DNA from: a virus
DNA length: 20,609 bases
IMG/VR virus record: IMGVR_UViG_3300048828_000602
Location: 1-20,609 of that record
Direction: 5' to 3' (one strand)
Below the pieces are notes generated by a model. It worked only from the letters and a program-made list of their open reading frames with translations. It was not told the origin of the DNA and ran no database searches. Numbering within the stretch: the first letter of the stretch is position 1; each line of letters begins with the position of its first letter. Made by a program: the position numbers and the translations under genes. Of the stretch, positions 1-20,609 are shown piece after piece.

Positions 1-3000
1 AAACGCAATGTCTCGTTTAATAACAGATGTTGGGTTAGTGCTTGTATTAAATTCATGTGGACTGACTTTACATAATATTTCATTTTCATATACACTATTG
101 ATGCCATCAAATGAAATTTCGTATCCATTACGACCTCCGTATTTTAATAAATTTTCATAATATTCAGATAATTCAGATATTACTGCTATTCCATTCTTAT
201 AAAATATATTACCCACATACACACGTTCACCATCTCTTATTGTTTTAACATCATATGCCAAAATAGACCCTTCTAATATCAAATCAGTTTTTTCTAGATT
301 TCCCCAAATTATATCACCACGTTGTGAGTATATATGAGAACAATCATCAAATGAAACTATTTCTGTATCATCAAATCCTGTGATCTGGTCAATTGGCCAG
401 TCCCCTATAATTGAATTACCCGAATATATTCTTGTTGAACTTATAGAAACGGATATACCAAAACTTGTTTTGGTTTTATTTTGTTGCTTAACACTTTTAA
501 TATTTTTAAGAGTTACTACTTCGTTATTTTCAATAAGTCTCATATAAGAAACAGTACCTTGAATACTATTCCGTTTGAGTGAATATATAAACTCTACCTT
601 TTCAGTAGGATCAAATAAATGAGAGTTAACCTTAACAAAAAAACAAATTTTATTATCATCCAATTTATTCTTATTTTTATAGATACCTCTAGTAAGTTCT
701 CCATTTCGTGTATCAATTTTGTTTTTTTCTTTTTTAAGAAATGAAGCAGCTATCTCAAAATCATTTATACTTTCTAAATTTATATTTATTAAATCATGTA
801 TGTTTATGTAAATTAACATATCTATGTCACCATCTCCTATATATTCATACTCGAACGATGTAAATAAAGATTGATGAACTTCATAAAACTCTTCTACATA
901 AGTTTCTACCCCGAGTTCATAATCTGGTATTTTAATTTCATTTCCTTTATTTTTTAATATTATTTTACTTTCATCCGTACACGGTGCACCAATCAAAAAA
1001 TCGTTTCCTATCATTGATACAGAACAACCAAATCTATTATTATACCTTCGTTCTTCACTTTCTAGTTCATATATTTTTTTAACATATGATACGGTATCAT
1101 TTTCTATTTCATACAGCCACACAGCACCAGATGAATACGATACACCCTTTGTTAATTCTATATCTGTGTCTACATAAACCCTATCGTAATCATCACCCAC
1201 AAGAAGATGTTTACCATTTGTTTCAATAGAAACACCAAAATTGGTGTATTTATTTTCATAATATTTATATGGATATTTTACCTGAGATGCCCTTTCCTCC
1301 ACCTCATTGATGCTAGGATTTATTGAAAATGATATCACAGATGGTACACCTACTAAGTATTTGCCGACATACCTACCGATGTAAATCTTATGTTCACCAG
1401 GAGGTACATCGTTTAACTTAAACTTATTTGAGTCTACTACACTCCCTCCGTGCAGAATCCTACTGTTGAATCTATCAGTTCCTTCTCCAAAAATTTTATC
1501 AAACCTATAAATAAAACCACTATCGGTTGTTTCTGGAATCTGTTTCACATCAACTTCAATGGTAATTGAATCAGACTCCAATTCAAATCTTATATCATTA
1601 AAGTATCGTGAGACTATAGCATTTTCATAATCATAATTATATATAAAATTTTTATTAATAGATTGTGTATGCGTCCATATATCACACCCATCTGCCGATG
1701 TATTTTTTCTAAACACGGCCACTTTTTTGTGATCTGAGCTGGGTGATGACGATGTAAGTATTCCGTCACTTAATTTAATATTTTCACCGAGTCTATTAAA
1801 TTTATTAGTTTTTATTATAGAAACCAACTTCCATGTAATATCACCCTCACCGTATTCGGGAGTTCTTTTACCTTTTTCAAATTCATGATAGTTTGATACA
1901 GGAAAGTTTGTTTCGTACCCAAAGGAAGAAATTTCATCTTCATCAAACAAGTTAATTTGCTCTAATTCACATTCATCACCATCTACACCAAACGGAGAAA
2001 TTCCGTAATTCTCAGGAGAAGCAGTCCTTATTTTCCATCTATATGCAGATTCGTTTAGTTCTTTTAGTTTGTCGCATACAGGTAACCCTCTGTGTGTTTT
2101 TGAAACCTCGTTAAAACAAAAGTCAGAATGAACATCGGATATTCTCCACCAAGGTGTGGTTTTAGTACGAATTGATTTTTCAAATAAATAAATTGCACCT
2201 TGATTTTTATATGCACCTGGAGAACCAATCGCCATATACTTTCCGTGTATTGAAATGGAAGACCCAAACTCAGAACCAGGATCTCCTTCTATTATCTCAG
2301 TCAATCCCCAATTCTCAGAACCACCCTTATCTACATCATATAAAAAAACATGACCCTGTCGTGCATCGTTGCATACACCGTGTATGTGAGACTCAGGTGA
2401 ACCGATTGCACACGTTCCATTTTTTAATTCAACCGATTCACCAAATTTGTCATTTATAGAATAATTTCTACTTGATATAAGATCACCAAGTTCTGTTACA
2501 AGAAAATTATTTGAATTTAGTTTAGATTCGTTGATAATACCACTTTGTGTAAACGGACACATAAACTCACGAACACTTCTAAATTCTTTAATATTTGCAT
2601 CGTATCTGAATAAAGAAGCAGAACCCGTCAGCAAATCACTCGGTGAATCTTGATTCATTGGAACTCCGGTTAATATATAATCACCATCCGATGCAAGTTT
2701 TTTTCCAACCAACATATCTGATGTGTTCGTTTTATTGTCATAACTTTCCTTATTTAAAAGTCTAGACTTTGATCTCTTAATATCTTTTATCTCGTTGAAT
2801 GAATTATCACTTATCGTGAGATTTGTTGCACCATCGTCTACAATCTCAATAACACCATGTGGAGATGAATAGTCTAATATTCTGAAAGAATTTGGTTTTA
2901 TTTGCTCTCCAAAATTTTTATTAGAAATTTCAATAACAAGTATTTCATCATTTACAACTCTTCTTTCGTAACCCGTTTCTCTATCTCCAAACGGGTTAGA

Positions 3001-3429
3001 ATCACTAGTTTCTGTTTTATACTGACCCGTCTCAGAACCAAATACCATTAGTGGGTTTTTAATATACGATTCGTTCGAATATATTCCATATTCATTGTAA
3101 AATAGATGCTTTACAGAGTTGTATACATTTCTATAGTAGGACCCGTCATAGTTAATTTTCTCGTATTCTTTATCGTAACTGGGGTGATCAACTGGATAAA
3201 ATGTGCCGGTTGTTTTCTTTCCGTACTTTATTTTTATATCAGTATTATTAGTAAACTGCTCGGTGGCCAACCCCAAGTTACTATCGAGTTGTAAATTTAC
3301 AGGTAAACCGTTATTCAGGGTTTGTTCAAGTACGATACCAGTATGTGAGTCTATTGTAGAGTGAGTCCAACTCTTACTTGATTTGAACTTTCTTACCGTT
3401 TTATCAGAAACCTTTAAACTCTTAATCAT
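1..3429 (-). CDS. Long FG-GAP (integrin-type beta-propeller-like) phage tail protein, C-terminus beyond the left edge
   Basis: The frame is open from ATG at 3429 to base 1 (1143 codons, no stop found reading every codon); an in-frame stop at 3457-3459 lies just upstream, so 3429 is the start. Seven FG-GAP-like motifs are visible near residues 240, 329, 383, 542, 729, 797 and 985, for example FGESVELKNGTCAIGSP, FGSSISIHGKYMAIGSPGA and FGCSVSMIGNDFLIGAP, several followed by a GxVxLYD/GAIYLFE strand. FG-GAP repeats form seven-bladed propellers in integrin alpha chains. Long inserts separate blades 3-4, 4-5 and 6-7. Residues about 165-215 (VIEISNKNFGEQIKPNSFRI, then a DDGxxNL turn) look like an N-terminal module I associate with phage tail proteins. 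No signal peptide or membrane segment is evident. Position after baseplate and virion genes suggests a tail fibre or adhesin. The propeller is firm as motif recognition; receptor binding is inference. No Shine-Dalgarno is visible. Confidence 0.85.
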   Translation of the reverse strand, partial: MIKSLKVSDKTVRKFKSSKSWTHSTIDSHTGIVLEQTLNNGLPVNLQLDSNLGLATEQFTNNTDIKIKYGKKTTGTFYPVDHPSYDKEYEKINYDGSYYRNVYNSVKHLFYNEYGIYSNESYIKNPLMVFGSETGQYKTETSDSNPFGDRETGYERRVVNDEILVIEISNKNFGEQIKPNSFRILDYSSPHGVIEIVDDGATNLTISDNSFNEIKDIKRSKSRLLNKESYDNKTNTSDMLVGKKLASDGDYILTGVPMNQDSPSDLLTGSASLFRYDANIKEFRSVREFMCPFTQSGIINESKLNSNNFLVTELGDLISSRNYSINDKFGESVELKNGTCAIGSPESHIHGVCNDARQGHVFLYDVDKGGSENWGLTEIIEGDPGSEFGSSISIHGKYMAIGSPGAYKNQGAIYLFEKSIRTKTTPWWRISDVHSDFCFNEVSKTHRGLPVCDKLKELNESAYRWKIRTASPENYGISPFGVDGDECELEQINLFDEDEISSFGYETNFPVSNYHEFEKGKRTPEYGEGDITWKLVSIIKTNKFNRLGENIKLSDGILTSSSPSSDHKKVAVFRKNTSADGCDIWTHTQSINKNFIYNYDYENAIVSRYFNDIRFELESDSITIEVDVKQIPETTDSGFIYRFDKIFGEGTDRFNSRILHGGSVVDSNKFKLNDVPPGEHKIYIGRYVGKYLVGVPSVISFSINPSINEVEERASQVKYPYKYYENKYTNFGVSIETNGKHLLVGDDYDRVYVDTDIELTKGVSYSSGAVWLYEIENDTVSYVKKIYELESEERRYNNRFGCSVSMIGNDFLIGAPCTDESKIILKNKGNEIKIPDYELGVETYVEEFYEVHQSLFTSFEYEYIGDGDIDMLIYINIHDLININLESINDFEIAASFLKKEKNKIDTRNGELTRGIYKNKNKLDDNKICFFVKVNSHLFDPTEKVEFIYSLKRNSIQGTVSYMRLIENNEVVTLKNIKSVKQQNKTKTSFGISVSISSTRIYSGNSIIGDWPIDQITGFDDTEIVSFDDCSHIYSQRGDIIWGNLEKTDLILEGSILAYDVKTIRDGERVYVGNIFYKNGIAVISELSEYYENLLKYGGRNGYEISFDGINSVYENEILCKVSPHEFNTSTNPTSVIKRDIAF

Positions 3430-3461: not shown

Positions 3462-4961
3462 TTAGAAATCTAGTTTTACTTTAATTAAGGTTTCCGTATC
3501 AAAACTTTTAAGAACAGGAACACTCAACTTTGCAACTGCAACAAGTTCATTGTTATCGTTGTATAAACCAATCGTAGTAACATATGTTTTTGGATCATTT
3601 GCAAATGAGTCAAATCTCAATTTTCCAGTGAAATACTCAAGTGGCATACCTTCTGATTGTGATAATTGTCTAGCTTCTTTATGTTGATATATAAAAGTGG
3701 GGTTGTTAGAGTAGTTAAAGTCTGTATTTCTAACCCTAATAAAATAATGTTTAGATGGAATTAACTCACTACTTCTGCTTTTAACATCTCCACCTAATTT
3801 TAGCATATAAAACATTTTTAAGAAATTTTGATGATTTCGTTCTATGCCAAACTTTACATCATCAGATTGTTCGGAGGTTGTTGAGTTTTGATCAACCGAC
3901 CCATACCACGACAAAACTCTACCACAATTTCCATCTCTCGTCGGAAATATATCAGTTTTTGTTGTAGTATACCACTCATCATACCATGTCTCGATTCGGG
4001 TTCCAAACTCACATGATAAGGCATATGGATTAAGTATAATAATACCTAAGTCAGGATAAATTAAACCAAACCCTTCACCTGCACCGGTACCCGTACCAGT
4101 TGCATAGTTATCACTTTCAATCGGAGTTCCGTCAGCAAGAGTTCCTTTTATTATATTAAAAGACTTTTCTACTTTTGGTCGACCTGTTACAGAAGACACC
4201 GCACCACCAAATCTAGAATCATCTCTAAATGTTTGAGTGAATGTTTTTTCTATCTTATCTTCTTGTCCGTTTTCCGTATAACTAAAATGTGCATTTAGAC
4301 TAAGTGTAAATTCAAGATTACCCTCATCAAGTTTTTCTTTTAAAGTAGTCGATGCCATGTTTATCACAAAAATAGAATCTCTATCTATACCAGATAAACT
4401 GGCATTGTCAGAGGTGAATGTAAAACTATCATCACCGGGTCCTAGTAATAAATTTTTATACTGAGAATAAATCGCCTTAGTTACCGATGAGGTTTTTGTT
4501 CCGACACGACTTCCATATCCAAATTTATTTCCATATGTAGTTGTAAATTGAACTTCCGCATTTTCGTTTTCTATTTCTCCGATCACAGGTTCTTCATTAT
4601 AAACATTTGCATAATAGTCACCAAACTGAACATTTGACCAATGAGCATCATGATAATTATTAGTAACATCTACATTTGGTAAGTACCCATCAATGAGAAA
4701 TTTTGAATTAAAGTTTGTATAATCTGTAGCAGAAACTAAATCACCCGATGATGACAGTTCGTCTGCATTTAAACTGAGCAGGTCCGAATCATCATCGGTT
4801 TGACCGGATCCAGATTGAACGTATTTGGTAAGTTCGGATGTAAGTTCACGTTCATCTATGTGCATATTCAAGAGTTGGAAACCACTCGTAAAACTACCCG
4901 ATGATATTTTTTGGGATCGGCCAAAAACTTTATCTGATTCTTCTATTTGTTTGTAGATCAT
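3462..4961 (-). CDS. Virion structural protein, conserved in T4-like marine phages (499 aa)
   Basis: This matches, from memory, a family annotated as virion structural protein in T4-like cyanophages and related marine myoviruses. Recognisable blocks are AEVQFTTTYGNKFGYGS near residue 135, AIYSQYKNLLLGPGDDSFTF just after it, YPDLGIIILNP in the middle, HYFIRVRNTDFNYSNNPTF near residues 402-425, and a C-terminal block YVTTIGLYNDNNELVAVAKL followed by SFDTETLIKVKLDF. No enzymatic motif, signal peptide or membrane segment is seen; it appears to be beta-rich and soluble. Its ATG overlaps the TGA stop of the preceding 219-residue gene by four bases (ATGA), so the two are probably translationally coupled and their products may act in the same sub-assembly. 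The precise location in the virion (baseplate periphery or tail) is unknown to me. Only 32 bases separate it from the next gene. Confidence 0.85.
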   Translation of the reverse strand: MIYKQIEESDKVFGRSQKISSGSFTSGFQLLNMHIDERELTSELTKYVQSGSGQTDDDSDLLSLNADELSSSGDLVSATDYTNFNSKFLIDGYLPNVDVTNNYHDAHWSNVQFGDYYANVYNEEPVIGEIENENAEVQFTTTYGNKFGYGSRVGTKTSSVTKAIYSQYKNLLLGPGDDSFTFTSDNASLSGIDRDSIFVINMASTTLKEKLDEGNLEFTLSLNAHFSYTENGQEDKIEKTFTQTFRDDSRFGGAVSSVTGRPKVEKSFNIIKGTLADGTPIESDNYATGTGTGAGEGFGLIYPDLGIIILNPYALSCEFGTRIETWYDEWYTTTKTDIFPTRDGNCGRVLSWYGSVDQNSTTSEQSDDVKFGIERNHQNFLKMFYMLKLGGDVKSRSSELIPSKHYFIRVRNTDFNYSNNPTFIYQHKEARQLSQSEGMPLEYFTGKLRFDSFANDPKTYVTTIGLYNDNNELVAVAKLSVPVLKSFDTETLIKVKLDF

Positions 4962-5617
4962 AGTGTTTCTGAGAGTCCACTCTCTGCGATTGAATCGGTG
5001 AATACACGAACAGGTATTGTCACTGAACCACCGCTTTCGTTTCCGATGATTGTAAGTGTTGCAGTTCTATCCTTGTCGATTGATGCGTTAGGACGAAATG
5101 TAAATGTTAACCCCACTACAGTTTGTGCCTGTTCACTTGAGGTGTCACCGAGGAACAACGCAGATGAAGAAGCTGCAGTACCATCTACACCCGAACCAGT
5201 TATTGTCCCAACTCGTCTGTCTGATAACACCGCTGTATAACCAAGTGTAGTGTTGTATACAGGATCAGTAGTTGGAGATATACTAACTACACCATTATAG
5301 TTTTTATCAAGAGTTATACTTTCTTGACCAAGTTTAATTAAAGGAATATATTGTGTTCCAGGAGATAGTGTCACTAGTTTATATTTTAAGGCCTGTGTTT
5401 CGTCTGTCAGTGGTTCAAATACAGGCACACTTCTTATAGCTGCATCATAGTATTGTGTTCCACCCGGATGATCTGGATCATACAGTGTGTAATCAATTTC
5501 ATCGTCTGCGAGTGCAAAACTTGTGATGTTTAGTCCTGATTCGGATGCAAGAAGTTCTCTTCCTCGTTTTGTTAAAGTAGCTTCAACAGTTATTGTTTCG
5601 TTATTTAAGTAACCCAT
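4958..5617 (-). CDS. Virion structural protein, MGYLxNxTIxVxAxLTKRGRELLA family (219 aa)
   Basis: The N-terminus (MGYLNNETITVEATLTKRGR, then ELLA), the ITSFALADDEIDYTLYDPDH block near residues 31-50 followed by PGGTQYYDAAI, and a later YKLVTLSPGT block identify a family I recall from T4-like marine phages, usually annotated only as virion structural protein. The C-terminal half (from about residue 115) is Gly/Ser/Thr-rich with alternating hydrophobics and ends in SGGSVTIPVRVF, suggesting an Ig-like beta sandwich. No catalytic motif is visible. The start is secure because the family begins with this MGYL. It is the first gene after the longer spacer carrying a late-promoter-like box, and its stop overlaps the start of the 499-residue gene. 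Base composition is clearly less AT-rich than the flanking genes (28 of 60 G+C at 4981-5040), which may reflect high expression. Exact role is unknown. Confidence 0.85.
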   Translation of the reverse strand: MGYLNNETITVEATLTKRGRELLASESGLNITSFALADDEIDYTLYDPDHPGGTQYYDAAIRSVPVFEPLTDETQALKYKLVTLSPGTQYIPLIKLGQESITLDKNYNGVVSISPTTDPVYNTTLGYTAVLSDRRVGTITGSGVDGTAASSSALFLGDTSSEQAQTVVGLTFTFRPNASIDKDRTATLTIIGNESGGSVTIPVRVFTDSIAESGLSETL

Positions 5618-5683: not shown

Positions 5684-6730
5684 TTAAGTTTTTTCTCTAA
5701 GTTCACCCGTAAATGTCATAAATTTGTTGTCAGCAAAGACTCTAACTCCAGAATTTGAACCACCTTCTAGTGTATATTTTTGGAGATTGAGTTGTTCCTG
5801 ATTCTGTGATCTTATCACAGAATGCAGTTGTTCTCCGTTGTCAATTCTTGATTGTGTATTTGATTGATATTCCACATTTGCTGAAATATATTCTTCTGTT
5901 TCCATGTAATAAAAAGGTAACCCACCATATAATAAATTTTTTCTAACAGGTGTAGCAACCTGCTTTGGTAAAAACGGGGTGGTGCGACTTGTATTATATA
6001 AATAAGATAAGTCAACTTTGGCAGATTGGTTAATTTCTACATTTCCATAGTCTAAGTTTTCTGAAAATACATAGACCGAATCAACAAACCCACTAAATCT
6101 TCCTATTTCTAAATTTTTTAAAGAGATTTTATCACGGACATATCCCTCATTAAATGATGCGGTATACACATTGTCCACAAACAACCTTGACAATCCAGAT
6201 GGATACAACATAAGAACCAACCAGACCCATGTGTTTTTAGGTATCTGATGTTCAAATGATACAAATTGATACTTCCATTTCGTATTATCCGTTTCTTCTG
6301 TTGATACAGACTCTTGTGTGTTATTCCACGTATACCCTAACATACCAGTTGACTCGTCATCCCCCTCAGAATCGTTTACATTTACCATGAAAGCAAATCG
6401 GTTGGATTCATCTTCTGTGGGTGCATTACTTTTAGTTTGTATTAAGCTTTCAGATAGACTACTTTCTCCTCTGAAATTTACCCACATCGCAACTGTTAGT
6501 GAGTTTGTTAAAATCTCACCACCACCGATCACATCTATGTAATCTTTTGGTTTATATACCTCACCCTCTTCGAGTTCGATGTTGGTTATGTCATTTCCGA
6601 GGTGAGCAAACCGTGAAGACTCCAATCCATCGTTTCCTGTTACTAACCTTCCGTGTAAATGACCCTTTCGTCCATTACCAGATAAGTCGTTCACATTATA
6701 GTGCGAGTGTTGTGCGTGGTCAGAATTCAT
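5684..6730 (-). CDS. LamG/concanavalin A-like lectin-fold phage structural protein (348 aa)
   Basis: Residues about 10-225 look like a concanavalin A/LamG-type jelly roll: an N-terminal YNVNDLSGNGRKGHLHGRLV segment typical of the first strands (xNDxSGNGxxG), then SLTVAMWVNFRG near residue 80, WVWLVLMLY and LSRLFVDNVYTASF in the middle, and LEIGRFSGFVDSVYVFSENL around 205-220, the usual closing strand. Such domains bind carbohydrates or serve as trimer-surface modules in fibres; which applies here is not visible. The C-terminal 120 residues lack a recognised domain. I chose ATG 6730, five bases after the stop of the giant gene, because the fold begins there. An in-frame ATG at 6796 would add 22 residues that overlap the giant gene by 61 bases and do not look domain-like. 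No Shine-Dalgarno is present. It probably belongs with the giant protein, which also carries a LamG-like domain. Confidence 0.75.
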   Translation of the reverse strand: MNSDHAQHSHYNVNDLSGNGRKGHLHGRLVTGNDGLESSRFAHLGNDITNIELEEGEVYKPKDYIDVIGGGEILTNSLTVAMWVNFRGESSLSESLIQTKSNAPTEDESNRFAFMVNVNDSEGDDESTGMLGYTWNNTQESVSTEETDNTKWKYQFVSFEHQIPKNTWVWLVLMLYPSGLSRLFVDNVYTASFNEGYVRDKISLKNLEIGRFSGFVDSVYVFSENLDYGNVEINQSAKVDLSYLYNTSRTTPFLPKQVATPVRKNLLYGGLPFYYMETEEYISANVEYQSNTQSRIDNGEQLHSVIRSQNQEQLNLQKYTLEGGSNSGVRVFADNKFMTFTGELREKT

Positions 6731-6735
6731 GATTA

Positions 6736-9700
6736 TTAGTAATTGGTTTTTATTATTGATGCATACCCAAGTTCTGTTACTGAACTTGGTGGGCATATAA
6801 ACTCAGGTTTAAATGAGAATACATTTGTTTCACACGTAATTTTCCATGACTCATCTTCAGAAGTTGGAGTTTTGTCAATACTGAGAACACGATATGGATA
6901 ATTAAGGGCATTTTCATATGAAGTACACACCGATTTATTTATATCAGTTCCGTGTATAAAAACAGTATCACCGATTTCAATTGTATCACTCACAGAAGAC
7001 GATCCTTGTTCAGGAACGATTCTTATTGTAATTTTATATGGGTGTGAGTCACTAGACTCCAATCCGTTAACACCCGACTTACTCTGTAGTTTATATGTTC
7101 GTAAAATATCTGGAGTATTTGGTCGTGTGTGTATTGAAATCTGACTAAATCCATCAATTGAACTGGTAAACGGTAACCAGGAAGTTACTTGGTTAGGAAA
7201 CTCAACTGATCGCTCCTCTCCAAAGAAAGGTGTAATTTCGTTCAACTCAAGTCCTTTTATTGCTTTCATGTAAAACAACCACCAACCATCTGATCTTTGA
7301 TAAATCCAATAACTAGAATTATCAGGTGTATCTTTTCTGTAGTAGGCATTCCCTAAAAATATACCAGCATAGCTATACACACCCGATAATTTAACATCAT
7401 TAAACTTAGATGCGTCTTGATCAGATTTATCCACGCTATCTAAAAAGTCTTGTCCTGTTTTGGTATACACACCACCATCTACAAACAATGTTGTATGCGT
7501 GGTTATTGGACCATCAAGAAATCCAAAAAGTTCAGGTGTAATAGTTGTAGGGGTAGCAGATTTTGTATTGCTTTTTGATTTTGTTGGTGTTTTTGTTTCT
7601 GATATTGATAATGAGGCAGATTTGGTGGGAGTGCCCGTATCTGTGTATGATTGTGTTTTTGTTAGTGATTCGGATTTACTTTCACTATGAGACTTGGTGC
7701 TACTAAAACTCTTTGTTTGACTAGCACTCTCAGATGGTGTTGGGGTTTTAGTCGCAGTCTTGGTTGGTGTCGGTGTATAAGTTGCGGTTTTTGTCTTTGT
7801 ATTCGTCTGCGTTGTTGTCTTTGTATTTGTGTTTGATCTTGATGGGGATGGGGATGGGGATGGTGTTGGAGTGTCTGGATACGAAATAGTCCTGGAGTTA
7901 TTAAAAGAATAATGCAGTTCCAGTTTGTCACGTACGGTCTGATTTATATCTTCCCAACTGGAAATCGGAGTGGGTTCTTCATACGCACCAACCTGTGAGA
8001 CAACTCTTTCGTCGTCAATGAACCAAAACGAATCAGAAGACCCACTTTCATATTCAGGTCTGCTAAACACGACACGTGTTCGTATGATGGGTGATGTTCT
8101 GTTTACATCTCCTGAACTAGAGTCAACCGTTGTGTTTAGTGTGTTTATAGAGTTTCGCCTAAACAGACGATTTTTACTACTTCTGTGTACCTTTGATTTT
8201 TTACTTGATATAACACCACCTTCGGTTTTTGTTTTATTCACATCACACAACCGATAGTCCGTTTCTACTATATATTTATTAATCTTATTTATAGGAATTA
8301 TTTTGTCTATTTCTTTAACATCTTCTGTATCTACAAACGCGTGAACCAAATCAAGTGATTCGTTTATAGTAAATTCATTTTCGTGAACCTCAGTTCGTTC
8401 TCTAAATAGATTCAAGTTTAAATTAATACTTAGAATTATTTTATTTATTTCCGGTATTCGGTTTGACATCGGTTTGTTTATTCGGTGTCTCTCTACACCA
8501 CGAGTGCTAGTATCACTTTCTAAATTATCATATCTAATTAATTCGCAGTTCTTTGTAAGATGTATATTATCGTATATTCTTGAAAACGAATCGTTATATT
8601 TTCTGTCTACGTTTATTTCGGTTGAGAAGTCTAAGTAATCTATTTTAATTTTTAGTTTAGTGTCGTCATTAACTTTACCCGATGATAAAACAGAGAATGT
8701 CGGGTTTTCTCTAACATCTCGTTCAAAGCAAACTGGACTATAACGTGTATCAATTGGAATGTGTGTCTCAATTTTATTACTAGATGATGATGTAAGTTTA
8801 TGTACTTCAAAAGCACCACTATCAGATTTTGTACCACCATTTGTTCCTACTTTATATGAAAATGTATCAGGATTAGATTTGTTTATCTGTGCTTTTATAA
8901 CCGAAGAGTCTATATTGAAATTTATATATGAATTTGCTACAAGGCAGTTGTTTAAATCAAAATCTATAACACCATCTTTTTCAAAGTAATAAATCCCATA
9001 CACATCATCTAAATTTCGGTTCAGACTGTCAATTCTATTATACTCTGTGAATATTATTTTTTTATCAGTAATGGTATCATTGACACACCAACCACTACCA
9101 GTTGCAGTTTGATAAAAGTATATGAAATAGTTTTCATTGCTTGTCCACACACTTCTTTGATTTACAATTATATGGGACTTTCTAAATTGTAGTTTATCAA
9201 AGTTATCGTTATTCGATTCAGACAATAAAAATATTTCATCATGTTCATTTTTATCAAAACTTAAATTTAATATATCACCTACATCTGACAAATAATTTCC
9301 GTATTTAGGGTATTCATATTTTAAATCAAAATTTTTAATCAATTTGTTTTTTGAATTTATTAGTCGTATGTTGTCGTTGTATATAACAACATTATATCGT
9401 ATAAACCAACCATCATCTGTGTGTGTAAATATAATATTTTCTTCATTTTTATTATAATACACTGGATGCTCTAATGTACCGAACTCATTTGATATTGTAT
9501 ACATTCCGTAGAAGTCGAACAGGTCACCACGACAATCAAGTTTATTACACTTAATTTCAATATTTAGATATCCAACTAGATCTTGTAATATTTGTCTGCG
9601 TCCATTATATATCGAAGCTGCGTCTTCTGGATATATTTCAATTCCGTATGATGAACTTGAATTATCGTCACACACCGAACAAGCACTTTCATTTCTGCGA

Positions 9701-12700
9701 CTTCCCCATACTACAAAATCATCTTGATCATTCATACGACGTGCATTACGAAATGCAGTAGCAACTACCGTGTTTCTGTGTTGATACGAGTATACGTTGG
9801 GTGTTAAATCGTACCCCAATCTAAAATAAAACTCATCGGTAACACAGGCACCCGAACTTGACACAAATACCGGTTTATTTGTTTCAACTATATCATTAAC
9901 CGGACTGGTTAGTGATATTATTTCGTCCGAAACTGCCCACACATCTATACTACCCTCCCCTGTTGTATAGACATCTTTGTATATGTAAAAGTCGTGTGCA
10001 TTTCTAAATACATCATGACCGTTTATTTGCTTATTAATTCGGTAATAAGATCCTTCTATTTTATTAAAAGTAGAACCTCTCACATTGGACCCGAGCAACC
10101 TTACACTCGGTACTACTTTATTGAGTAATTTTTCATAACTCACCTCTATGCTCACATCTACATCTTTATCAGGATATACTTTTGTATAAACTGCACGGGG
10201 TGGTAACTTATTTTCAACCGACTTCACACTAACTGACCACGCAAGTATATTATTTCGGGTGCCGATGTAGTTTATCGCATGACTGTCTGCAAATTCAAAT
10301 TTTTCTATATTTGGAATAACGGAAAAGGAAGAATCTATAGCTTTTTTGTTAGACTTAGTTGACTCGGTTTTAATAAAGTTGCTGTCTTTACATAAATTCT
10401 CATATAAAACTACATCTGACTTATACACCATGTCTGTTTCGTTAAAACCTGACCCATAATCTGTATTGAATGTTATCTCAGATATACCAAGTGATGTCGT
10501 ATCTAATATACCGTTAAATTCAGACTGAGTGAATCCATACATCCATATGGTATCTCTGTTGAATATTCCACTTTCACCACTTTCAAAATAACTATCTGAA
10601 CTAACCTTTACTAGAACCCAAGCACCATGTATATCATCTTTTTTGCATTCGGGTTTAGATATACTATAAAAAACTAACCACTCACCAGATGTGTGTAAAT
10701 ACGAATATTTTTTATTTTTTCTATAACTTCGTCTATATTGACCGTTTGCAGACTTCCACCTACCCACGAAATCATTTAAATAAAATCCTTTATACTCAGA
10801 TGTACCAACCAATAAAAAGTATTTAGACAACGAACTGGACTCTGAATAATATGCTTGATTTAAAATGGGTTCTATTTCACATTCATACGATAGAAACTTA
10901 TCATTAATATTAAACGTGGTTATTGCACCGAGTGTATCCTTTGTGTAGATGACCGCCTCCTCGTCATCATCCGCATCTACATTCAACTCTCGGTTTACGG
11001 CAAGGAAATAATTCAATTTGTCGTTGGCAGACACTTCCAATTCAACACTTTCACCTACATCAAGACTTTGATCTAAAAATTCATATTTATGATGGCGAAT
11101 CTCCACTACATCTTCTTTGATAGTATCACCACCGATATCGTAACTCTGAAAATAGTTAACTCCACCATAGGAAATCATGTCGTTTGTGTCACTTATGAAG
11201 TCGTTAGAATTTATATGCACACGATGTGCAACAGAATCATCTAAAGAACCAAGGAGATAAATGAAATTATCAGAAGTTTCACCCATATTATATTTTAAAA
11301 TAATACTATTAGTGTCATTAAGTGAATTTACCAATTCATTCTTTGTTACCTTTATTTTTAGTGTTTGGTTTTCATATATCTCATCTAATATGTCTTGATC
11401 TACAATTATACTTTCACCCAATTCACCAAGACTATTTGGTGAAGTTTCTATATCAGTTTCTATTATAATGTCTTCATTTCCAATTGATGTGGTGTATACA
11501 GTGTTTGGAGTCATATATAGCCCAACTGAGAACAAGTCTATATCACATTTATATTCACCGACCGTTGTATCAAAAATAAATTTTATCAAAAAATCTATAG
11601 TTTTTCGGCCATCGGAATTTATGTATTTAATGCGATGTTCTAGTTTTTTATTTTGTTCTCGGTTTGTATAGTTTGGGTGATATCCAATTACCTTCAGTGA
11701 ACGAAGTTCGGTTGTATGTATTTCAACAGTAGTGTTAAGTTTTATATCCGATATAAGTGGGTTTTCAATTACATCTTTGGTTTTGTGGATAAATTTGTTG
11801 TTGTATTTAACACGTGTATTTCTTTTTGGAACACCATCTTCATAGAATATTTTATTTTCAGAATTTCTTTCTATTGTTATTTTCCGAGTTGAATCAATTA
11901 AGTTTGAAAATTTAAATTCTACTTTGTTTGGTACTTTTACATGGGTGTGTTGGGTGAAAGACCGAGTGTACGTATTAATATTATTTGGGTTATACATATC
12001 ACTATTCAATATAACATTATCAGGATGATTTTCTACTATATCATTTATATCACCAAACATATATTTTTTACTAAAATAACAACCACCAAATCTTTGATTG
12101 TTATACAGACCATCACTTAAAATAAAATTTGTATTGGTATTTTTGTTTCCAACAAACCCCCTTTGTAAAATTCCAGTAAATTTACCATCCAACCTTATTT
12201 TGTATTTTTCGTTTCTAAATCTAACTATACCCTTGTTTATTTTAGCAGACTCACTTCCGTCCGATTCTGTTTTTATTATCGTGTATGTTCCATTAAATAA
12301 TCCAGAAATCTGACAATCTATAGTACCAGACACATATCCCGATAACCTAATTCTCTTGTCAGAGTTACTTGATAAGTTTGTAGTAGTGGAGTATTTTTTA
12401 TATGAATTTAAAGGACCTGTCCCTTTTGAATTTAAAAATATACTATTCCAGGTTGTATAACTACCCGATAACTTAGTAATCTCATCGGTGGTAACTACAC
12501 CGAAATCTGACGGAAAATATCCGTCCCGATCAACTGTTGCATAAAATCTAATAACAGTTCCGTCTGCAAGTAAAGTTTCTGTGTTTCTAGTTATTTTTGG
12601 ATCTTTGTTTAAAAGAACCCATGCGTCTACATAAGGTTCGTAGTAAATAAACCAGGTTTTAGCAGAATTTATAAAGTGTATTTTTTTATTAACATTACGA

Positions 12701-15700
12701 TTAGATGTAAACACACCCTCAACTGAACTCAGTGTTGCTCTTTCCACGGGTGTCAAATCTACTTTATTTTTTAACTTAATTGTTAAATAAAATTTTGTTA
12801 ATATTGTATAGTCAGTTAATCCTGATTTCCACGATGACTCCTCGTAAAAAATTTTCTTTGATTCCTCAACTCTATATAAGTTTCCGTTTTTAAATACATG
12901 ACCAAATCTCGGAATATCTGATTCCATATATTCTGTATTCATTTCACCATAAAAACTATCATACAGACTTTCTTTGTTAGTTTTACCAGAAACTTTTTTA
13001 TATGAGGTGTTTGCAGTCAAGCATACTTTGTTTATATTATCATGTTTTCCGTTGAACATAGATTCATTCGCGAACGAAACAATATCTTTATTTTTGTTTC
13101 TACCCGATAACCTAATATTCTTTAATGGTTTTATTTTTTCGGTAGATTCAATTACAGTTAAATTTTGATAGTTAGTTTGAATCTCGTTTGTTATATGTGT
13201 GCCTTTTAACTTTGTTCTCTCTAACAAGGTTGGTTCAATTACCAGACCCGATATTATACGACTTCGTGCAGGAAGTAATTTTTCAAAATTATCAAACAAA
13301 GATTCGTCTAAATATGACTTGAGTGTGTTTAGGTAGTTTGACCAATCTATCTTAGAAAAACCCTCTCTGAAAAATAACTTTTTCAGAGTATCAAGTTCTT
13401 TATATTTTGTCTTTTCGTAGTAGGCAGGATCACCAATATAATCACCCAATTTAAACTTACCAAAAAACTTTATAATTTCTTCATTAAGTGGAACACTGGG
13501 TCCAAAAAACAAACCAACTGTATTTGAGTCTTTACCTGCACGGTCTAATGATTTTTTTGTTGCACTATATCGTGGATTTAATGTACCCGTTAAGTATTGT
13601 TCCTCCACTCTAATTTTATTATTAGAAAATGTGTGGTTTCCGTATCCGGGTAGATCAGCAACTTCTTTTTTAAATCTACCAGAAAAATCATATGGAAATT
13701 TTTTCTTTGTAAAATTAAAACAACGAGCATGAGATTTTAACTCAGTTGAAAATGCACTATTATTTAAAACGCCATATCCAGTTTTAAAGTTTGCGGTTTC
13801 TGATAAATCAAGTGGGTAATCTAAGTTACTCTTAAATAGTAAACTACTTCGTAAATTGTAAAAATCTGATATACTATATGACTTTGAAAATAATACATGG
13901 TTTTCAAATACTTCTTCTGAAATTGCAGATGAATATACACGCAAACTACTTAGATTTCCTTTAAACTTATGGTCTGTGTAGTTTCCTATGTAAATGAACT
14001 CATCGATTGAAAAATTTGTAAATTTTTCCTCATCAACAATTATATCAATCTGATCAGAAAATACAATTTTTTGATCAACTTTTCTTTTAACATAAAACGA
14101 AATGGTCTTTCTTTGTAGTTTATTAAAGTCTTCTGTCCTTTGTATTAGAATATCATACCCCTCATCTGACCACATATACAGGGGTGCTTTTGACTTGGTT
14201 GGGCATTGTGTTTCGGTATCTCCTATTTTAATATAAAACCTACCATAATCTCCGTTGTTTTCTGTCAATGTAGTAATACCAAATTCCCACTCACTTCCTT
14301 CTATTAGTTTTATTTTTTGAGAAGAATTTTTAATGAGTTTATTAAACGAAATATTAAACTCGATAGAGATCGCATTTTTATCTTTATATGACCAAGGCAG
14401 TTGTATGTATTGGTTTTCATTGATTATAGTTAACCCATAGTCGTACGTGTCAAATGTAAATGAAGAATTCCCACTATCATCCGAGTATTCGGTTGCCCCA
14501 CCATACTCACGAACAGAAAACAATTGCTCCGGAATATCATAGCACCTAAGTAGTGCATTTATTGAAGCAAGAGTTCCTTTTGTTTTTAAAATATATGGAA
14601 GATTGTTTAATATTCTTCTCCATATTTGATTTCTTTTGTGTGTCTGTGTGTTGGCATCGCTTATATTATTTTTTTGTATACCATCTAAATTAATGTTTTG
14701 ACCTGAAAAATTAAGTCCAAGTGATTGTAGAAAATAATAAATCAAATTATCAGGAATTCCTTTGTTTTTTTGATTTCTTACTTTTCGTGTATTTCCTAAA
14801 TTTTCTATATACCCGTTTATGTGGTCAAAGTGTAGACCAACCATATTGAGCATATTAATAAACTCATCATTCTCTTCATTTCGTGTTATGAATTCAGGAA
14901 TATTCATAACCAACGATTCGTAGTTTTCTCTGTCGTAATAAGAAGCATCTTTATGCTTTTTTTCAAACCAAGAGTATGATAGTGAGGTTTTCCACTCACT
15001 TGCCCGAGTGGATATATAATCGGGTGCTATTTTTCCTACTTCTGGTCCATATTTTATTTTTTCTAAATCAGATTTTATTGTGTCGGATAGATTAAATCCC
15101 TCACTTTCAGTAGATGTTAGTTCTGTTTCAAAATAATAAGATTCTTCCTCAATTTTAATCCAATTTGATAATTTAAAATAACGAGTATCAGATAATATCC
15201 AAGCAGACTCCTCAGCCTCCCACCAAATAAACCAATTCCCATTTATGTGTTTGTAGTCATACTTTCCATCATTGTAACTGTATTTTAAGTATCTTCCGTT
15301 AGCAAGTTCATTTATTCCAGTAATACCAGATATATAAATGTATTCATTTCTGGGAAATGCGTGGTCGGATACTTCATAGAAGAGAAATCTTTCATAATCT
15401 GTGAATGTATACAGATGTTCATCTAACTTTTTCTTATAGTTCTCTAGGTCAATTTTTTTTAAAACACTTATTGCATCATTCGCATCATCCTCAGTAGCAA
15501 GATTTGTTTCTATCTTTTTTTGCAAAGATAAAATATTATATTCAATTTCGTCTATCTTTTTAATTAAATCAGATATAGTTGAATGTTTTTGTATGAATAT
15601 TTCCAGTTGTTTTCTTGCTGATGAAAATTTTACAAAGTCTTTAAATTCAGAAAAATTGTGATTGTTTACATTAATATCGTTTGAGAAATAATTAGATATA

Positions 15701-17619: not shown

Positions 17620-18875
17620 TATGTTGATAGGTGAAATGTTCGTGTTTCTTCGTAGACGGACTGACCACTCGGTGAACTAACCATCAGTAAAAATTTATAG
17701 TACCGACCTGGTGAAAATGAGTTAAACATAACATCAAAGTAATGACCAACTTCTCCGCAACTAACTTGTGAATATTTGTCAAAATCAATAATTATTTCTT
17801 GTGTCTCTGCATCAATTATGGAATAGTATATATCATCACTTGTATAATAGTTTGAAGAATATACTGCTTTTTTTCGTATCTTCCTTACTGGATTTTTACT
17901 TCTCACCCCTACACGAAATCTAATAATCTCACTTGTTTTATAGTTTTTCTTTATATCTTTTATTTTTACAAATAACTCTCCTGATATATTTTCTAAAGAG
18001 TGTGGTTCTATTTTACTTACATTAAATGTTTTATGATTCTCACACGACTCTGTTATTGTATCACGCACATCAAAATCTGAGTAGTCTGCATCCGAGTTAG
18101 TTTCGTCGCACTCATAGGTGAGTGTTCCGGATTCCAATGTTCCACTCAAACCAAGTGATCCACTTATATAATCCGTACTATCATCAACTTCTACTAAGTT
18201 TTCTAGAAATGTAAAATCCGTGTATGATAATTTTAATCGTGGTGAGTATATTGTGTTTGTACTTGATGAAAAAAACTTAATACTACCAAAATTAGCATCA
18301 TTTGCTTCATTTTCTAGTTTTAGAACAATGCCATTATTTTCAATGTCACCACGCACCCACATGGAAACTAAGTCTGTTATGTCAATATCTATATCTGATG
18401 TTTTTTCTTTCAAATCAATATATGAATTTATTTTTTTTAGATTCCCACAACAATCTAATTTTGTTTTAAAATAAGTTGCTCCTCGTTCACTATCATTGTC
18501 ATGTTCCCATCGGTGTGTGTCAGATGAATAGATCCAGTTTACAGGAGCAAACACCTGATCATAATCATCAGCTGCACCAGTCCCCTCCACCCAAGGACAA
18601 TTGATTGGATATGCCATTAATTTGTTACCATATTCTAGATTTTCAACGTGAGTAATTTTTAATTTTAATTCAGCCCTAAAATCTGAATACGAGTTATATG
18701 TATCAATATCAATTGGTATATCAAACTGAATTAAAATCTGACTTAGATTGTGATCTGAGGTTTTTCCTCCGTTGTTTATAATCTCAAGTATCTCTGCATT
18801 ACCGTAATTTAGTTCACGTCGTGATCTTTCTTTATATATCGTGGCATCTTTAAGTGGGTAAATAAATAAGTTCAT
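17619..18875 (-). CDS. Virion protein with DNRLRE-like N-terminal domain and phage beta C-terminal domain (418 aa)
   Basis: Residues 1-220 fit the DNRLRE/CBM96-like beta sandwich: an initial IYPLKDATIYKE strand, LNYGNAEILEI, QILIQFDIP (46-54), an AELKLKI strand, PWVEGTG (94-100) with APVNW, a Trp at 123, DIDITDLVSMWVRG (163-176), NNGIVLKL and a closing SPRLKLSY (211-218). The family often occurs on extracellular and structural proteins. Residues about 290-418 resemble a C-terminal domain I associate with phage structural proteins (YYSIIDAETQEIIIDFD, then HYFDVMF and SPGRYYKFLL). Between them lies an acidic linker (225-275). The start overlaps the gp6 stop as TAATG and is preceded, seven bases away, by a good Shine-Dalgarno. 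Position next to gp6 suggests a baseplate-attached component; its ligand and exact site are unknown. Confidence 0.75.
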   Translation of the reverse strand: MNLFIYPLKDATIYKERSRRELNYGNAEILEIINNGGKTSDHNLSQILIQFDIPIDIDTYNSYSDFRAELKLKITHVENLEYGNKLMAYPINCPWVEGTGAADDYDQVFAPVNWIYSSDTHRWEHDNDSERGATYFKTKLDCCGNLKKINSYIDLKEKTSDIDIDITDLVSMWVRGDIENNGIVLKLENEANDANFGSIKFFSSSTNTIYSPRLKLSYTDFTFLENLVEVDDSTDYISGSLGLSGTLESGTLTYECDETNSDADYSDFDVRDTITESCENHKTFNVSKIEPHSLENISGELFVKIKDIKKNYKTSEIIRFRVGVRSKNPVRKIRKKAVYSSNYYTSDDIYYSIIDAETQEIIIDFDKYSQVSCGEVGHYFDVMFNSFSPGRYYKFLLMVSSPSGQSVYEETRTFHLST

Positions 18876-20609
18876 TAAACGACCCTCCCTACTATATCTC
18901 TAGATGGATATTTTATTTCAAAAATTGACGGGTCCCTTGATGGGTATATCACCTTGTTTATAGTTGCACCCTCTATATCATATTCGTTTTCAGAATAGTC
19001 TCCGTCATTTATTGATAGGTTTAAGAAGTCAAGTCTAGACACCGACTTAACTCCCTTCGTTTTGGATATCAAAAGTTCAACAGAACCGATTTCAATTGGT
19101 TGTGATATTTGCCAAGATTTAATATCAAAGTGAGTAGTCAACTTATTTATACAATTTAGTAATACTTCTTTTTTGTTAAAACTTTGAAAAATATTTATTT
19201 CAAAATAAATACCAATATTAATTATGAACGCATTGCTTATGTTAACCCCGTCGGTTATCATTCTAAAATTTGATAGATAGTTTACTAAGTTGTTTAAAAC
19301 TAGTTCATTTGGTTTTACTAATTTATGGGATTCATCGTAACTAAGAATATATAGATTTACTGCAAATGGATTATTTATTTCTCCGTACACCATATTTAAT
19401 CCATTTGGTTGAACATCGGAATCATTTATTTTAGATGATTTTATTGTATCTAGTTGGGATTGGGTATCAAGTATTCCGTCCTTTGTAACGAATGCCTTGG
19501 CCACACTTCCATACTTACTTGGCATAGCATAACACCTAACCACATAGTCTTCTTTTGTAACTGCCCTCATCTGTGAAGAGAAGTTAGCAAGTCCTTTGAG
19601 TCGTATTTCTTCATCGGTTTCCGCATCACCCCCACCCCGTGCAGGATCTGGATTATTTGCTATCAAACTATTCTTAACAGTTTGCAATATAAGTTGTTCC
19701 GATGCTGATAAATATTCATTTGTATCTGCATACTTTACCACACCTATACTATTTAAAACATTTGATTTAATGTTAGATTCAGACCCCCCTCCTGTATAAT
19801 ATTGTACTTCAAGAGTTGTGTTACTTGGTGCTTCTCCATATGAATCCGATTTTAAAAAGTTGCTTGGGTCATATCCCATATCAAGTGAACTTTTTGTTAT
19901 GTTTATATTATTATTTATATTAGAACTGGTAGGACTGATCACAGTATCATCTATTTTATCCGAACCCTTTCCGAACTCCAGTGTAATTGTGTTGTCGGTA
20001 TTTATATGTGTTATATACCTACGTGAAGTCTTAATATATTGAAGTACATACGGTGTGCTTGTTGTGTATTGACTATAATCAGGAAAAGTTTTTTGTATAT
20101 TTGGTTGCTCAATTAATACTAAGTCTTGGGCCATGTACGGAACTTCGTGGTATATGTTACCATCCGAGTCTGTTACGGATATAATCTCCAATACATCTGA
20201 CTCTGTGAGTTCAATTTCAAAAAACTCAGAGGCCTCTCCGACTGATATGCTCTTTGTTTTAATAGTTCCTGCGGTTACATGAGCCTTTTTCTTTAACAAA
20301 TAATACAAAGGTTGACCTGTGTTGTCGCGTTCAAACACACTTATTTCTAGTTTAGATTGTGATGTATTTTCTGCAAATTGAATGCTATTGGTCGTCCTGA
20401 AAACTATGTCTGCGTTTTCAGATGACCTAATTTCCATACCCGATTGGATATTTAATGCAAACTTCATGTCGGGAATGTTCTTGCCATTTTCATCTAACCC
20501 AGATGGAACAACCTGCATGACATCAACTATGGTGGATGCTGGTTTAGAGGCACTTGGTTTATATCCTAAATAACTTGCAAGTGTTAGTATATTTTTTCTC
20601 TCAGTCGCA
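18875..20609 (-). CDS. 6: Baseplate wedge subunit gp6-like protein (Baseplate_J-like), 5' end beyond the right edge
   Basis: The frame is open to the right edge: codons upstream of the internal ATG at 20518 read RKNILTLASYLGYKPS, a typical N-terminal block of this family, so the true start lies outside and at least 577 residues are present (T4 gp6 has 660). The hallmark segment is near visible residues 320-365: RGGGDAETDEEIRLKG followed by ANFSSQMRAVTKEDYVVRCY and AMPSKYGSVAKAFV, which matches the A-x-NF-x-SQ-x-RAVT-x-EDY signature of gp6/Baseplate_J proteins. The C-terminal third has the usual alpha/beta repeats (FIINIGIYFEINIF, PIEIGSVELLISKTKGV). In T4, gp6 forms the inner iris ring of the baseplate, linking the wedges. 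Here it heads the visible gene set, upstream of virion and adhesin genes, and overlaps the next start by one base. Confidence 0.92.
   Translation of the reverse strand, partial: ATERKNILTLASYLGYKPSASKPASTIVDVMQVVPSGLDENGKNIPDMKFALNIQSGMEIRSSENADIVFRTTNSIQFAENTSQSKLEISVFERDNTGQPLYYLLKKKAHVTAGTIKTKSISVGEASEFFEIELTESDVLEIISVTDSDGNIYHEVPYMAQDLVLIEQPNIQKTFPDYSQYTTSTPYVLQYIKTSRRYITHINTDNTITLEFGKGSDKIDDTVISPTSSNINNNINITKSSLDMGYDPSNFLKSDSYGEAPSNTTLEVQYYTGGGSESNIKSNVLNSIGVVKYADTNEYLSASEQLILQTVKNSLIANNPDPARGGGDAETDEEIRLKGLANFSSQMRAVTKEDYVVRCYAMPSKYGSVAKAFVTKDGILDTQSQLDTIKSSKINDSDVQPNGLNMVYGEINNPFAVNLYILSYDESHKLVKPNELVLNNLVNYLSNFRMITDGVNISNAFIINIGIYFEINIFQSFNKKEVLLNCINKLTTHFDIKSWQISQPIEIGSVELLISKTKGVKSVSRLDFLNLSINDGDYSENEYDIEGATINKVIYPSRDPSIFEIKYPSRDIVGRVV
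18883..18889 (-). promoter_or_regulatory. Ribosome binding site for the 418-residue gene
   Basis: The minus strand reads GGGAGGG seven bases before the ATG at 18875, within the last codons of gp6. It is the only convincing Shine-Dalgarno among the seven starts in the window. It also encodes the Gly-Arg near the gp6 C-terminus, so coincidence is possible. Confidence 0.55.

Follow-up and report, generated by a model that had tools for sequence, protein, structure and literature searches.

The last gene on the minus strand of the window, the whole 20,609-bp stretch of DNA analysed here, encodes a seven-bladed FG-GAP protein that is probably a modular tail adhesin, in which the propeller would serve as a platform for exchangeable binding domains and through which the phage may bind its receptor. 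Phage-encoded FG-GAP propellers are already known; what is new here is that an FG-GAP core with seven conserved blades is combined with three insertion sites, extremely variable in size, and with a dockerin-type insert within a shared tail module.

The tail cassette

The window corresponds to a whole IMG/VR record and is fragmentary. Its minus strand can be read as a T4-like tail cassette, starting with a gp6-like baseplate wedge gene, followed by two mid-sized genes and those for proteins of 3428, 370, 219, and 499 aa, with the FG-GAP ORF as the last one:

18875..20608, minus strand: gp6-like baseplate wedge protein, matching phrog_219 (E=3e-8), truncated at its N-terminus by the contig end
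17619-18875, minus strand: 418-aa protein, next after the gp6-like gene
6736-17022, minus strand: 3428-aa tail protein, between the mid-sized proteins and the 370-aa protein
5684-6796, minus strand: 370-aa protein of the tail cassette
4958..5617, minus strand: small conserved tail-cassette protein of 219 aa, the anchor for the relatives search and the tree
3462..4961, minus strand: first module protein of the cassette, 499 aa, with the C-terminal module and no calcium-binding insert

The first-pass annotation had assigned the protein to the tail of a T4-like phage, and the type of phage and the tail-cassette context are both supported. T4-type genes are represented by the gp6-like wedge protein in the window and by the Gp23 capsid protein in the relative L003 (E=2.4e-82), which also encodes SbcCD-like, primase, and RuvC-like genes, and the N-terminal region of the FG-GAP protein is common to other proteins of the cassette.

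Several smaller observations concern the neighbouring genes. The 3428-aa protein has no Pfam match, shows partial similarity to large syntenic proteins of the phages Mel-JY01, LR756508, and immuto, and has, towards its C-terminus (about 7650-7950), a long low-complexity linker rich in P/T/S/K. Its ORF overlaps that of the 370-aa protein by some 60 bases. This latter protein matches Laminin_G_3 below the threshold (E=3e-4), and so does the 418-aa protein with Disaggr_repeat (E=4.5e-5).

Seven blades and three variable loops

The Pfam family FG-GAP_2 (PF14312) matches the window ORF with E=3.1e-17 and 62.9 bits, over a cut-off of 23, in agreement with the original reading of seven FG-GAP-like motifs in a single frame over about 770 residues. 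These motifs lie at residues 237-257, 327-345, 386-404, 545-563, 729-747, 798-816, and 988-1006, spanning 770 residues, and the proline is kept in only five of the seven. A loose blade regular expression, tuned on the FG-GAP family itself, gives seven non-overlapping matches, which are six of the seven motifs (blade 1 is missed) plus a match at 1057 that is probably spurious; on 2000 shuffled sequences it never gave more than three. All seven motifs also align in 18 other members of the family, so that they reflect conservation and not chance. The parts of the protein are the following:

1..3429, minus strand: FG-GAP tail protein ORF, residues 1-1143, start codon at 3429, C-terminus cut by the contig end
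2722..3429, minus strand: N-terminal domain, residues 1-236, common to other cassette proteins
2530..2721, minus strand: blade 1, residues 237-300, from motif alignment and model strands
2281..2454, minus strand: blade 2, residues 326-383, from motif alignment and model strands
2170..2280, minus strand: blade 3 strands A-C, residues 384-420, where FG-GAP_2 matches best
1846..2169, minus strand: insert between strands C and D of blade 3, residues 421-528, modelled with low confidence
1807..1845, minus strand: blade 3 strand D, residues 529-541, from model strands
1654..1806, minus strand: blade 4, residues 542-592, from motif alignment and model strands
1270..1653, minus strand: beta-rich insert in the D4-A5 loop between blades, residues 593-720
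1072..1269, minus strand: blade 5, residues 721-786, from motif alignment and model strands
976..1044, minus strand: blade 6 strands A-B, residues 796-818, from motif alignment and model strands
568..975, minus strand: insert in the B-C loop of blade 6, residues 819-954, beta-rich
484..567, minus strand: blade 6 strands C-D, residues 955-982, from model strands
232..474, minus strand: blade 7, residues 986-1066, from motif alignment and model strands
1..216, minus strand: start of the shared C-terminal module, residues 1072-1143, ..CKVSPHEFNTSTNPT.., where the window stops just before the dockerin-type insert of L002, L003, and L011

In L039 (11862-16728) and L049 (10948-14040), the N-terminal domain forms its own gene directly upstream, and the FG-GAP gene starts with blade 1. 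Within the family, the gene has therefore been either split or fused.

Large beta-rich inserts had been described between the blades in general; the inserts are real, even though they are restricted to three places, in blade 3, between blades 4 and 5, and in blade 6. Across the 19-member alignment, the gaps between motifs b1-b2, b2-b3, and b5-b6 are near constant, the sole exception being the b2-b3 gap of 156 in L039, whereas those between b3-b4, b4-b5, and b6-b7 range from 52 to 603, 65 to 1644, and 75 to 551 residues, respectively. The window protein has 159, 184, and 190 residues at these sites, and the longest gap, 1644 aa in b4-b5, belongs to the relative L102. According to the strands of the AlphaFold2 (AF2) model of the window protein, from which the sites were assigned, the inserts sit in blade 3 between strands C and D, in the inter-blade D4-A5 loop, and in blade 6 between strands B and C. 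Judging only by strand order and the convention customary for propellers, the last two should lie on one face of the propeller, equivalent to the ligand face of integrins.

Some of these inserts are built from repeats. The b4-b5 insert of L102, L103, L104, and L017 contains between 4 and 8 recognisable repeats, each about 150 aa long, which in L102 (3136-6700) amount to eight in tandem within the propeller loop, with up to 68% identity to the first and no convincing match to Pfam families or solved structures. L019 has a different repeat in b3-b4, recurring in b6-b7; both types are unrelated and occupy different loops.

Between the window and L003, dN/dS is low throughout, with dS near saturation, and the inserts are not clearly faster than the blades. 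Fast evolution of the inserts under positive selection was rejected at this distance, given that all dN/dS values are low. Window and L003 are thus conserved at their distance, inserts included, and the change within the family appears to consist of the gain and growth of whole domains.

The fold of the propeller

The original reading also proposed a single propeller, for which profile searches against FG-GAP and integrin alpha families would provide a check, and both families were matched. Among PDB sequences, a profile of the family retrieves integrin alpha-4 (3.5e-4) and also dockerins of cellulosomes (3e-5). The window protein searched as a single sequence against the PDB gives only chance matches (integrin alpha-M at E about 0.9), and the PHROGs search returned nothing for it or its relatives.

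The AF2 model of the window protein is weak overall, with a pLDDT of 56 and a pTM of 0.58, and the blades reach 70-93 in many stretches. Its first 23 PDB matches are all integrin alpha chains, but the superposition is poor, with a TM of at most about 0.34. The compact relative L028 gives a better model (pLDDT 67), which is a propeller: its first 36 PDB matches are integrin alpha chains (the best one being 4irz, E=1e-11), and its TM against the 452-residue alphaIIb head (2vc2) is 0.57. The single-propeller fold is thus supported by the model of this relative, for which integrin alpha heads are the best matches among solved structures, and, given the low TM of the window model, the case for a closed ring in the window protein comes entirely through L028.

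The C-terminal module and its dockerin-type insert

The contig ends within the C-terminal module, so that the rest of it and the dockerin-type insert were outside the view of the first-pass annotation. Three viral contigs encode relatives 79% identical to the window protein, two of them complete with 1370 aa. In L003, beyond the point where the window ends, Dockerin_1 (PF00404) matches with 36.3 bits (cut-off 22.9) in two stretches that correspond to two DxDxDG loop-helix repeats, and the match exceeds the cut-off, with both halves covered, in all three records (L002, L003, and L004). The repeats sit between the two halves of the C-terminal module, ..EFNxSxNPT.. and ..TTIGLY..VAKL..P.., with their predicted calcium loops about 80-100 residues apart. 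The window copy stops right before the first of these loops. Judging from these close relatives, the window phage presumably carries the insert as well; its 219-aa neighbour protein is 97% identical to that of L002.

The insert accompanies the propeller closely, being present in 23 of 23 FG-GAP proteins versus none of the 46 module proteins without FG-GAP, many of these sequences being near-copies. The stretch between the module halves measures 174-325 aa with at least one calcium loop in all 23 FG-GAP proteins, and 19-114 aa without calcium loops in all 46 measurable proteins lacking FG-GAP. A LysM domain adjoins the dockerin-type domain within the C-terminal module in L016 (12129-16544) and L019 (12226-18366). 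A phage-encoded cohesin partner was considered and rejected, since none of the eight phage records searched, some of them incomplete, contains a cohesin (PF00963).

One gene slot with alternative payloads

Searching for relatives with near-identical sequences gave nothing new, and the use of the 219-aa neighbour as bait provided 80 more cassettes, with FG-GAP proteins from 779 to over 2800 aa. Full FG-GAP genes, of 3275, 3136, and 3147 aa, were recovered for three relatives. The cassette order is kept in Mel-JY01 (Microcystis), immuto (Flavobacterium), and the uncultured phage LR756508, where the FG-GAP slot holds module proteins of 591, 357, and 304 aa, respectively, with the same C-terminal module. 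FG-GAP_2 is absent from the whole records of these three phages, and a direct search of the named phages found the C-terminal module only.

According to a profile of its last 46 residues, this module is present in 142 cassette proteins, usually two per cassette, and 1-5 more proteins per cassette end in it besides the FG-GAP protein. Six consecutive genes all ending in the module are found in L089 (3639-12849). Laminin_G_3 occurs in 24 of 39 module proteins without FG-GAP from sister phages, and such LamG domains can be structural rather than sugar-binding.

In the tree of the 219-aa neighbour, 31 FG-GAP cassettes fall on one side of a single branch (support 96), apart from 35 without FG-GAP, with the window and the other insert-rich members grouped in one sub-branch of ten. 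This topology indicates that the propeller and its dockerin-type partner were gained once, and that the loops grew later.

Proposed function and alternatives

In the mechanism that we propose as the most parsimonious, the N- and C-terminal modules would probably fix the protein to the baseplate or the tail cassette, and the seven-bladed FG-GAP propeller between them would form a rigid head. The extra domains would exit this head at three loops, two of them (D4-A5 and B-C of blade 6) on the face corresponding to the one that in integrins serves ligand binding and receives the alphaI insertion. Contact with the host would most likely be the task of the variable inserts and not of the blades, and the dockerin-type EF-hand pair in the C-terminal module would probably bind calcium and stiffen or orient the head. 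The architecture had been called that of an unusual adhesin: unusual it is, and an adhesin is plausible, although the phages S-TIM5 and Atu_ph07 offer FG-GAP precedents. The receptor role attributed to it is inferred.

An exclusively structural role, which we consider unlikely, would turn the propeller and its inserts into a passive element, a spacer or a decoration, serving to reinforce the tail tip or to connect fibres, and would leave contact with the host to other proteins, such as the 3428-aa neighbour. Such a role would fit the low dN/dS, which is not what a recent arms race would look like and hence counts against an adhesin, as well as the several module proteins per cassette, any other of which may bind, and the dockerin-type pair, suggestive of protein-protein contact. 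However, two features would sooner be expected of a binding head than of a structural spacer: the swap for ConA/LamG lectin-type domains in the same slot, and inserts whose length at fixed loops runs from tens of residues to more than 1600. A tail enzyme, whose insert or propeller would degrade host polysaccharide at entry in the manner of a depolymerase, is highly improbable: enzymatic propellers do exist in some phages, such as the endosialidases (PMC4901313), but no enzyme family was detected in any member, and FG-GAP propellers are mostly binding platforms. It is scarcely credible that the dockerin-type domain anchors the phage to a surface complex by docking on a host or phage cohesin, as in cellulosomes, since the matches to both halves of Dockerin_1 in L002, L003, and L004 are countered by the lack of cohesins in the eight records and by calcium loops that are not adjacent.

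As a modular adhesin, the family would represent a clear case of a tail protein that diversifies with its core unchanged, where blades and end modules stay constant and new domains, widely differing in size, are added at three loops. The family brings together FG-GAP, lectin-type, and dockerin domains in a single gene slot, either as substitutes for one another or as partners, and thereby aids the annotation of many 'hypothetical' tail proteins in aquatic T4-like phages, and it provides a natural, structurally testable parallel to the integrin alphaI insertion.

Comparison with known systems

In integrins, the alphaI domain, present in half of the alpha chains, is inserted between blades 2 and 3 (PMC3192720). 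The window family resembles integrin alpha chains in its seven FG-GAP blades, in its best solved fold matches, and in the possibility of inserting a domain in an inter-blade loop, which here is the one between blades 4 and 5 instead of 2 and 3. Contrary to integrin alpha chains, where such loops are typical of the A-B loop of blades 4/5-7, the window blades lack DxDxDG calcium loops: there is no motif of this type anywhere in the window protein, and in the relatives these motifs are nearly all in the C-terminal insert, with none at the A-B loop of a blade. The absence of these integrin-type loops makes 'integrin-like propeller' a correct term and 'integrin' an incorrect one. No Ig-like legs, membrane anchor, beta partner, or vWA-type insert were found, and full-length relatives end in the phage C-terminal module. 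It is possible, as a tentative extension of this parallel, that the phage lineage independently reached the alphaI solution of integrins, with a fixed seven-bladed platform, ligand-side loops bearing exchangeable domains of up to eight tandem repeats, and a dockerin-type calcium latch in the stalk that orients the head.

The insert shares with cellulosomal type I dockerins the two DxDxDG loop-helix repeats, a score above the Pfam cut-off in L003, and profile matches to solved dockerins. It differs from them in that its repeats are about 80-100 residues apart, those of type I dockerins being adjacent, within about 60-70, in that no cohesin was found, and in its location inside another domain.

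Among phage proteins, plain FG-GAP_2 propellers are encoded by S-TIM5 (AEZ65754, 419 aa, annotated as a virion structural protein) and Atu_ph07 (AUZ95081, in a cluster with a tail fibre gene). Unlike the window family, these have one compact propeller without large inserts, shared C-terminal module, or dockerin. In the literature searched, we found no paper on FG-GAP phage tail proteins, nor on dockerin together with FG-GAP in phages. Propellers also occur in the receptor-binding proteins phi11 Gp45 (five blades), PRD1 P2, and PhiKZ gp131C (seven blades) (PMC4901313), where, as proposed here, they form the head of a tail or vertex protein. However, these propellers are of other types, with no FG-GAP blades and no exchangeable giant inserts reported (PMC4901313). 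Closer in genomic terms are Mel-JY01 WWT39517 and the other LamG module proteins, which share the gene position and the C-terminal module but carry a Laminin_G_3/ConA-like payload, with neither propeller nor dockerin.

L117 also has such a cassette, lacking a large FG-GAP gene, on a contig binned with a Winogradskyella genome, which hints at Bacteroidota hosts for the wider group.
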